Source: Conexibacter sp. (GTDB lineage: Bacteria; Actinomycetota; Thermoleophilia; Solirubrobacterales; Solirubrobacteraceae). From it: a DNA stretch of 64,000 nucleotides. The position numbers were made by a program, and so were the translations under genes. Where the stretch lies: assembly GCA_025964325.1 (NCBI GenBank), contig JAOPZA010000081.1:1-64000 (forward strand). The letters are read 5' to 3'. The notes under the pieces are model-generated. The model ran no database searches. It worked only from the letters and a program-made list of their open reading frames with translations, and was not told where the DNA came from. Position 1 is the first letter of the stretch. Every line of letters starts with the position of its first letter. Shown piece by piece: positions 10,162 through 12,544 of the stretch.

Positions 10162-11061
10162 TCAAGCGGGCGGCGGCGCCGGCGCGACGTGCAGCAGCAG
10201 CTCGTTGCCGAACGGGTCGGTCGCGACGAACGCGTCGGGGTCGTCCTCGGCGGGGCCGCTCGGGCCGCCGGCCGCCTCGACGCGGGCACGCACGCGCGCC
10301 AGCTCGCCGGCGTCCGGCAGCGCGATCGCGAAGGAGCGCAGACCGCGCGCGGCCCGGTCGGCGGTCGGGCCGCCGGCGCTGGCCCAGGTGTTCATGCCGA
10401 TGTGGTGGTGGTAGCCGCCGGCCGAGAGGAACAGCGCGCCCGGGTAGCCGCGCACGACGACGTCGAAGCCGAGGACGCCGTGGTAGAAGGCCTCGCCGGC
10501 GGCGACGTCGCTGACCTGCAGGTGCACGTGGCCCATCCGCGTGCCGCCCGGCATGCCGTCGTCGCCGGCGTCCTGCGGCAGCGTCGCGAGCACGCCCTCG
10601 ACGTCCATCGGCAGCGTCGCCATCTCGATCTCGCCGCCGGGAGCACGGCGCCACTCCTCGCGCGGGCGGTCGCGGTAGATCTCGATCCCGTTGCCCTCGG
10701 GGTCGTCGAGGTAGAGCGCCTCGCTGACGAGGTGGTCGGACGCGCCGGCGATCGGCCAGCGCGCGAGCGCGACGCGGCGGATCGCGCGCGCCAGCTCCTC
10801 GCGCGAGGGGACGAGCAGCGCCAGGTGGAAGAGGCCGCTCGAGCGCGGCGCCCGCGCTGCGGCGTCGGCCCGGCCGACCAGCTCGACGAGCGGCGCCTCG
10901 CCCGGAACGCCGAGGCGGGCGGTGCCCTCGTCGAGGGCGAGGACGCGCAGTCCCAGCGCCTGCTCGTAGAAGGCGGTCGTGCCGGCGAGGTCGGCGACGG
11001 TCAGCCGCACGGCCCCGACGGTCGTCGCTGGGTGGAGTGAGGGGGCGGAGGTATCGGTCAT
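10162..11061 (-). CDS. VOC-family dioxygenase/glyoxalase-like protein (CatE-like)
   Basis: A 299-aa protein with tandem vicinal-oxygen-chelate modules, resembling CatE-type extradiol dioxygenases or ring-cleavage-like VOC proteins. The first module shows GLFHLALLV (metal His) and GNGIEIYRDRPREEW (metal Glu), the second shows GHVHLQVSD and YHHHIGMNTW, so the usual two His and one Glu ligands can be placed. It should be a cytosolic metalloenzyme. A substrate cannot be assigned; many such genes are only called glyoxalase. A TATCGT box lies 15 nt before the ATG. It is followed by the aldo/keto reductase on the same strand. Confidence 0.85.
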   Translation of the reverse strand: MTDTSAPSLHPATTVGAVRLTVADLAGTTAFYEQALGLRVLALDEGTARLGVPGEAPLVELVGRADAAARAPRSSGLFHLALLVPSREELARAIRRVALARWPIAGASDHLVSEALYLDDPEGNGIEIYRDRPREEWRRAPGGEIEMATLPMDVEGVLATLPQDAGDDGMPGGTRMGHVHLQVSDVAAGEAFYHGVLGFDVVVRGYPGALFLSAGGYHHHIGMNTWASAGGPTADRAARGLRSFAIALPDAGELARVRARVEAAGGPSGPAEDDPDAFVATDPFGNELLLHVAPAPPPA

Positions 11062-11223: not shown

Positions 11224-12183
11224 ATGAGCGTCGACTTCCTCGCCGCCTACGCCGGCAGCTCGGTCGCTCAAGCCGCGCTCGTCGCGGGGGCGACGGCGAC
11301 GAGCGCGCCGCTCTGGCTCGGGCCGCTGCGCCACCGCGCCTTCGCGCTGATCCCGCTCTTCTCGCTCGTCGGCGTCGTGCTGGCGCTGAACCTCTGGCCG
11401 TCCGGCGCCGACACGCTCTCGAAGGTCGCCCTCGTGCTCGTCCCGCTGCTGGCGCTGATCGCGGCCGCCCGCTCCGGCTGGCCGGCGGCGGTGCTCGTGG
11501 TGGCGGGCCTGGCGGCCGCGCTGCTGGACGTGCACGGGCTCGCCGGACAGCTCGGCGCCCTCGTCGTGATCGCCGCCAGCTGCATGCTGCTGGGGACGCT
11601 GCTGGTCGAGCTGACGCCGGCGCGTTGGCTCGGGGCCGGGATCGTCGCGATGGCGGTCGCCGACCTCGTGCTGGTCGCGAGCGGCCTGCTGGAGCCGGCC
11701 GCCGACGCGCTCAACCAGGCGGGCGTCGCCCACAGCCTGCCGCAGCTCCAGCGCGTCCAGATCGGCCCGCTGGCGATGGGCTACGGCGACGTCTTCCTGC
11801 CCGCGCTGGTCGGCGCCCTGCTGGCCGCGCGGGCGCGGCCGCGCGCCTGGGCGGCCGGCCTCACGCTCGGCTTCGCGCTCGTCGCGGCGATCTTCTTCCT
11901 GCTCGTCGACCAGCTGCCGGCGACCGTCCCGGTCGCGTTCGCGCTCTTCGTCGTCGAGGCCGCCGGCGCGCTGCGCACGGCTCGCCGGCGCTACCGCGCG
12001 GCACGACGCGCGGCACGCGACATATCCTCGCCGCCATGCGGGGACCAGGTACGAGCACGTCCGGCGAGCTGGCCGGCCGCCGCGAAGGGGCCGTCCGCGA
12101 TCGCCGCGACGAGCACGGTGCGCAGCCATGAGGCGCCGGGACGTCACCGCGTCGCGTCGCCGCGCCGGCAGCTGCGCGGCTGA
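11224..12183 (+). CDS. Putative presenilin-like (GxGD) intramembrane protein
   Basis: A 319-aa membrane protein not recognised by name. It has about nine hydrophobic segments over residues 1-250 and then a basic, low-complexity tail. Two membrane aspartates stand out: D147 in AVADLVLV and D189 in MGYGDVFLPALVG, which matches the GxGDxxxPxLV pattern of A22-type (presenilin/PSH) intramembrane aspartyl proteases. A later LPATVPVAF segment could correspond to the PAL helix. Function as a protease is inferred, not shown. The tail (from about 12036) overlaps two ORFs in other frames and may not all be translated. TATCGC lies 9 nt before the ATG. Confidence 0.62.
   Translation: MSVDFLAAYAGSSVAQAALVAGATATSAPLWLGPLRHRAFALIPLFSLVGVVLALNLWPSGADTLSKVALVLVPLLALIAAARSGWPAAVLVVAGLAAALLDVHGLAGQLGALVVIAASCMLLGTLLVELTPARWLGAGIVAMAVADLVLVASGLLEPAADALNQAGVAHSLPQLQRVQIGPLAMGYGDVFLPALVGALLAARARPRAWAAGLTLGFALVAAIFFLLVDQLPATVPVAFALFVVEAAGALRTARRRYRAARRAARDISSPPCGDQVRARPASWPAAAKGPSAIAATSTVRSHEAPGRHRVASPRRQLRG
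12036..12131 (+). CDS. Possible 31-aa small ORF
   Basis: A short frame inside the 3' tail of the GxGD membrane gene. It is listed because TATCCT ends 7 nt before its ATG, the same promoter-to-start spacing as at many other genes here, and because its stop overlaps the next ATG by ATGA. The peptide is hydrophilic and Arg/Gly-rich with no recognisable domain. It may be a translated leader that couples to the gene at 12128, or the promoter may serve that gene alone. Codon use does not discriminate between the frames. Confidence 0.3.
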   Translation: MRGPGTSTSGELAGRREGAVRDRRDEHGAQP

Positions 12184-12544
12184 CCGCATCTGGATCGGCT
12201 TCCTGCACTTCGTCGCGGTCCGGCCCGACAGCGTCCTCGACGGCGGCGACGGCGCCTACGGCTACGTCGCCGCGCGGGTGCCCGACCAGGCCCGCTACCT
12301 GCGCGTCGTCGGGCGCGCCGCGACGCGCCACGGGCTCGTGCTCGAGAACGTCGAGTGGGTCGAGCCGGCGACGGCGCTGCCGCCCGAGCACCGTCCCGGC
12401 GGGGAGCTGCAGGAGCTGGTCGGGAGCGCGCGGCGGTCGCCGCGCCCCGTCGTGTGGGGGCCGCTGCACGCCTACACCGGCGCCGAGGGCGACGAGTCCG
12501 ACGACGAGGACGTGCCGTGGTCGAGCCGCGACGTCAGCGGGTAG
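12128..12544 (+). CDS. Conserved-looking hypothetical protein
   Basis: A 138-aa protein I do not recognise. From about residue 18 it reads as a compact soluble domain (IWIGFLHFVAVRP, YGYVAARVPDQARYLRVV, LVLENVEWVEP) and ends in an acidic stretch with EGDESDDEDVPW. The first 17 residues are Arg-rich and may be poorly conserved. No membrane segment or metal motif is seen. It begins in an ATGA overlap with the small ORF and overlaps the tail of the GxGD membrane gene. The NAD(P)-binding protein follows 10 bp later with its own TAGGGT box. Confidence 0.6.
   Translation: MRRRDVTASRRRAGSCAADRIWIGFLHFVAVRPDSVLDGGDGAYGYVAARVPDQARYLRVVGRAATRHGLVLENVEWVEPATALPPEHRPGGELQELVGSARRSPRPVVWGPLHAYTGAEGDESDDEDVPWSSRDVSG

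Follow-up and report, generated by a model that had tools for sequence, protein, structure and literature searches.

The 64,000-nucleotide stretch of Conexibacter sp. DNA analyzed here (contig JAOPZA010000081.1, positions 1 to 64,000; the window) carries at positions 11224 to 12183 a gene whose product is predicted to be an intramembrane aspartyl protease that consists of a single chain and has the presenilin/signal peptide peptidase (SPP) fold of family A22, representing a divergent bacterial family. We put the probability of this reading at roughly 80%, with catalysis as the step that we infer. An earlier note, made from the letters alone, had suggested a presenilin-like protease at this open reading frame (ORF) and had named residues D147 and D189. 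The ORF and both residues are present exactly as described, and a presenilin-like protein is supported by the conserved residues, the topology, and the predicted fold, with proteolytic activity a candidate property. The elements of the protein are listed below (TM, transmembrane helix).

11224..12183, + strand: candidate presenilin-fold di-aspartyl membrane protease gene, ATG start, 319 amino acids.
To about 12009, + strand: membrane domain, residues 1-262, with a variable tail beyond it.
11662..11664, + strand: codon of D147, a TM6 residue predicted to be the first catalytic Asp (surrounding sequence MAVADLVLV; Asp in 97/97; helix 133-152 in the model).
11737..11751, + strand: LPQLQ (172-176), a family signature before hairpin strands 177-180 and 183-186 (P173 97/97, L175 96/97, Q176 96/97).
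11779..11790, + strand: GYGD (186-189), start of TM7, with the predicted second catalytic Asp, D189 (D189 97/97, G186 96, G188 90).
11914..11931, + strand: LPATVP (231-236), PAL-like, start of TM9 (T234 and P236 97/97, P232 95, A233 94; helix 234-268 in the model).

These counts come from an alignment of 98 family members, one of which is gapped at each site, so that all are out of 97. Both aspartates, which had been proposed to lie in the membrane, fall in modeled TM6 and TM7 and are invariant in orthologues and paralogues alike. Among 77 nonredundant sequences, just eight positions are invariant, and they include the two aspartates and the threonine and proline of LPATVP. The order and positions of D147, GYGD189, and LPATVP match the A22 triad of YD, GxGD, and PAL, and the last of the three is the proline-containing segment that had been expected where the PAL motif would fall. 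The longer pattern read by the earlier note, GxGD...P..LV, holds in part: GYGD is present and its aspartate is fixed, but the proline that follows (P193, in GYGDVFLP) occurs in 12 of 97 members, with alanine in most. With conservation left aside, a D...GxGD...PA arrangement at such spacing arose in 56 of 20,000 composition-matched shuffles; the motif residues of the window protein are not a product of chance.

Structure prediction against presenilin and the archaeal presenilin/SPP homologue (PSH), the check proposed at the outset, returned nine TM helices and matches led by SPPL2a, presenilin-1 (PSEN1), and archaeal PSH. AlphaFold models of the window protein (24-sequence alignment; predicted local distance difference test [pLDDT] of 85.4, predicted template modeling score [pTM] of 0.76) and of its relative L011 (77-sequence alignment; pLDDT of 94.4, pTM of 0.90) both place a short helix behind TM6 and a hairpin of two strands immediately before TM7. 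In the models, the first aspartate lies within TM6, GYGD opens TM7, and LPATVP opens TM9. When the window protein was compared by Foldseek with 350,542 chains of the PDB, SPPL2a ranked first (9k93; probability of 1.00, template modeling scores of 0.51/0.56), and the next plausible matches were presenilin-1 chains (probability of 0.72 to 0.94). For L011, presenilin-1 chains and archaeal PSH (4hyg and 4y6k) occupied ranks 1 to 10 and 12 (probability of 0.91 to 1.00), with AdiC at rank 11 (0.06) and the best non-A22 chain at 0.14. A fold unlike that of presenilin and aspartates that vary among orthologues had been named beforehand as observations that would tell against the proposal; neither was found.

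This structure match carries weight because it is specific, with a large gap to all other chains, because two separate models select the same enzyme family, and because three invariant motifs land on equivalent helices. The same features argue against a functionally unrelated polytopic membrane protein, in which the motif would be coincidental and the structure matches would reflect weak similarity among helical bundles; that no Foldseek E-value reaches 0.001 and that sequence similarity to A22 is undetectable speak for such a protein, which we consider improbable. The presenilin-type fold and the placement of the motifs within it are well supported by the models.

Type IV prepilin peptidases and FlaK (A24) also use an aspartate together with a GxGD or GxHyD aspartate in membrane helices (PMC4343526), and the window protein could in principle be their relative instead of one of A22. 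Its nine helices and conserved TM9 proline motif argue otherwise, both structure searches give A22, with A24 prepilin peptidases absent among the 50 matches listed, and the protein has no match to PF01478, the genome's own PF01478 (A24) protein being encoded at a separate locus. An A24 affiliation is thus very improbable, even more so than an unrelated function.

The presenilin-fold family to which we assign the window protein is a divergent bacterial one of the Thermoleophilia (Actinomycetota), mainly of the Solirubrobacterales. It was matched in 94 of 201 genomes of this order and in 17 of 119 genomes of a wider class sample, and a phylum-wide sample queried with a distant member gave matches confined to members of the class. 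Scanning genome contigs yielded 98 relatives; the labels listed for 80 of them are nearly all Solirubrobacterales or Actinomycetota and include Conexibacter arvalis, Solirubrobacter soli, and Patulibacter minatonensis. Searches of plasmids and viral contigs found no family relatives. Conexibacter-type genomes carry two divergent paralogues, and the second copy in the window's own genome (L002, G000:C180:14235-15074) is 43% identical to the window protein and more typical of the family. A tree of 90 members has an outer clade and two others: a Conexibacter-type clade, to which the window protein belongs, and a large main clade, to which the second copy belongs. One relative, L108, from a contig labeled as a Chlamydiae metagenome-assembled genome, falls inside the Solirubrobacterales part of the tree, has the same gene neighbors, and is probably mis-binned. 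In the Patulibacter members L038 and L112, an insertion of about 30 residues between TM5 and TM6 appears as a split match.

Five of the six outer-clade members have GxLD or GxMD in place of GxGD. Five outer-clade sequences from other Thermoleophilia families (L040, L042, L043, L044, and L045) have GWLD or GWMD and keep both aspartates, and L041, which adjoins them, has GWGD; the two types provide a natural test of the importance of the second glycine. The relaxed GxGD motif, the missing tyrosine of YD, and the lack of a known substrate are what might be expected of a presenilin-fold protein that has lost proteolytic activity or has always lacked it, serving as a scaffold, channel, or transporter with the A22 fold. 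The family (A3) profile also matches helices of the PnuC transporter weakly (E of 0.0097), which we rejected as sub-threshold hydrophobic similarity, and PnuC-like folds are absent from the structure matches. Pseudoproteases normally lose their catalytic residues, but here both aspartates persist in all 97 members while most other positions vary. As summarized in PMC4343526, in vivo assays led to the redefinition of the motif of archaeal A24 PibD as GxHyD, where Hy is hydrophobic (Henche et al. 2014), so a hydrophobic residue in the GxLD or GxMD of the outer clade would be compatible with catalysis. We regard a nonproteolytic role as unlikely, if less so than either of the alternatives above.

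In the A22 enzymes PSH, SPP, and gamma-secretase, water is activated by a pair of aspartates that face each other from TM6 and TM7, and unwound substrate is held as a beta-strand by the PAL motif of TM9 and the strand before TM7 (PMC9282858, PMC7366577, PMC7768045). The window family has these mechanistic elements in the same order. In an active protease, D147 in TM6 and D189 of GYGD in TM7 would activate water inside the membrane to cut an unwound substrate TM segment, which the strand pair before TM7 and LPATVP at TM9 would hold as an added beta-strand, as in gamma-secretase. In 90 of 90 members, positive charges collect on the same membrane side, that of loops 1-2, 3-4, 5-6, and 7-8 and the C terminus; this charge count predicts an N-out/C-in orientation, as in SPP and opposite to presenilin. 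Because the orientation is SPP-like and SPP/SPPL enzymes cut type II segments (PMC7366577), type II segments may be preferred, for example leftover signal peptides or N-in single-pass anchors.

SppA (Peptidase_S49) is absent from 96 of 101 Solirubrobacterales genomes, the window's own among them. This gap could be filled by a different enzyme that disposes of signal peptides and is compatible with such a clearance role for the family. A vertically inherited lineage of bacterial presenilin-fold proteases, lying below all sequence profiles and for that reason unrecognized so far, may dispose of signal peptides and membrane anchors in SppA-less actinobacteria; we offer this account tentatively, at a little under even odds, and hold the substrate and physiological role as proposed to be somewhat more doubtful still.

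Several observations weigh against assigning the window protein to the A22 proteases. Searches of Pfam and NCBIfam gave no family above the cut-off, profile searches of the PDB with the family (phmmer and hmmsearch) returned no A22 chain, and hhalign, run with a very shallow set of SPP sequences, aligned the GxGD segment only. PF06550 (archaeal SPP) was found in two archaeal genomes as a positive control and, bar one sub-threshold match, in none of 99 genomes of the class and 397 of the phylum. The best Foldseek E-value is a weak 0.047, and scores of about 0.5 indicate a distant match. The residue before D147 is mostly Ala (51), Val (19), or Ile (18), with no Tyr among the residues listed, and PAL is replaced by PAT, with the proline and alanine conserved in place and the third residue an invariant threonine, followed by VP. 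The gene neighborhood carries no functional information, and the lack of SppA is unspecific: SppA and the family are both missing from some genomes, and both occur in Patulibacter-type genomes.

Other sequence searches yielded little. An hhalign comparison with pieces of SPP, SPPL2a, and PSEN1 gave no significant A22 link; the human PSEN1 core and HM13 sequences used for comparison served as leads only and were checked only through the presenilin and SPPL2a chains that they matched in the PDB. A plasmid search for archaeal SPP sequences found none. The sole sub-threshold PF06550 match in Actinomycetota (L132) has no presenilin-like ORF and was put down to chance, and an NCBIfam IcmT_TraK match in the C-terminal stretch (E of 0.0027; score of 17.8 bits where the cut-off is 40) was dismissed as sub-threshold hydrophobic similarity. 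No sequence-level search thus placed the protein formally in A22. The assignment rests on the fold prediction and the conserved motif triad, because profile methods alone miss known A22 families.

The window is rich in G+C (68 to 76%) and contains numerous overlapping shadow ORFs. Relative to its closest relative, L052, the gene has 45, 31, and 88 differences at codon positions 1, 2, and 3, respectively; because of this third-position excess and because relatives are widespread, ORF 11224-12183 is a genuine gene. Its product is without annotation, and the host is a soil-type actinobacterium. The tail past approximately residue 262 varies between relatives, has low model confidence, and overlaps the next ORF, and the functional unit is the membrane domain, residues 1-262. 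Two neighbors flank the gene.

12128..12544, + strand: next ORF, which starts before the protease ORF ends; no Pfam family.
10162..11061, - strand: divergent upstream neighbor, a two-domain glyoxalase/VOC protein, as context only.

The downstream ORF is possibly translationally coupled to the protease ORF. A sequence resembling this small ORF also lies downstream of L052. A search for a conserved operon around family members found no common partner; neighborhoods are lineage specific, one group having PEPCK upstream and another having MgtE/Nramp, and there is no sign in the gene neighborhood of partner subunits like those of gamma-secretase.

Presenilin and SPP are usually described from eukaryotes and archaea. 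Outside eukaryotes, presenilin-type enzymes have been demonstrated in archaea (PMC2947513), and we found no bacterial case in the open-access literature, a search outside which most subscription papers lie. If the assignment is true, A22 extends into Bacteria and gains a small enzyme of one chain whose YD and PAL motifs are altered. A bacterial family in which both aspartates are fixed but YD and PAL have changed would reveal what the active site cannot do without, would bear on the age and origin of presenilin-type proteases, and would supply simple enzymes for studies of inhibitors and mechanism. The Solirubrobacterales, mostly without SppA, would gain a candidate signal-peptide-clearing enzyme.

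Among known systems, the type IV prepilin peptidases, FlaK, and PibD (A24) resemble the window protein in their membrane di-aspartyl chemistry and GxGD-type motif, of which PibD has a variant with a hydrophobic residue at the second glycine, but A24 enzymes have fewer helices (5 to 6; PMC4343526) and no TM9 motif, and have no structural or Pfam match to the window protein. Presenilin-1 in gamma-secretase (A22A) shares the fold of the family model (6lr4, 6iyc, and 6lqg; probability of 1.00), the TM7 hairpin, and the TM9 motif; unlike presenilin-1, the window family has the opposite predicted orientation and lacks the large TM6-TM7 loop with its auto-cleavage site. SPP/SPPL2a (A22B) includes the structure that the window protein matches best (9k93, 1.00) and has the same orientation as is predicted for it, and the GxGD segments align well by hhalign (GYGDVFLPALVGALL with GLGDVVIPGIFIALL), whereas identity is only about 11% and the window protein is prokaryotic, with shorter loops and without QPALLY or a PA domain. 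Archaeal PSH (MCMJR1 of Methanoculleus marisnigri; A22) differs in that structural alignment gives 14% identity, PF06550 misses the window family, and the latter has no Tyr before the first aspartate, has PAT for PAL, and occurs in a bacterial host. Like the window family, however, PSH is a single chain with an aspartate in TM6, a GxGD aspartate in TM7, and a proline motif in TM9, and its nine-helix fold is matched with probabilities of 0.98 and 0.91 (4hyg, 4y6k).
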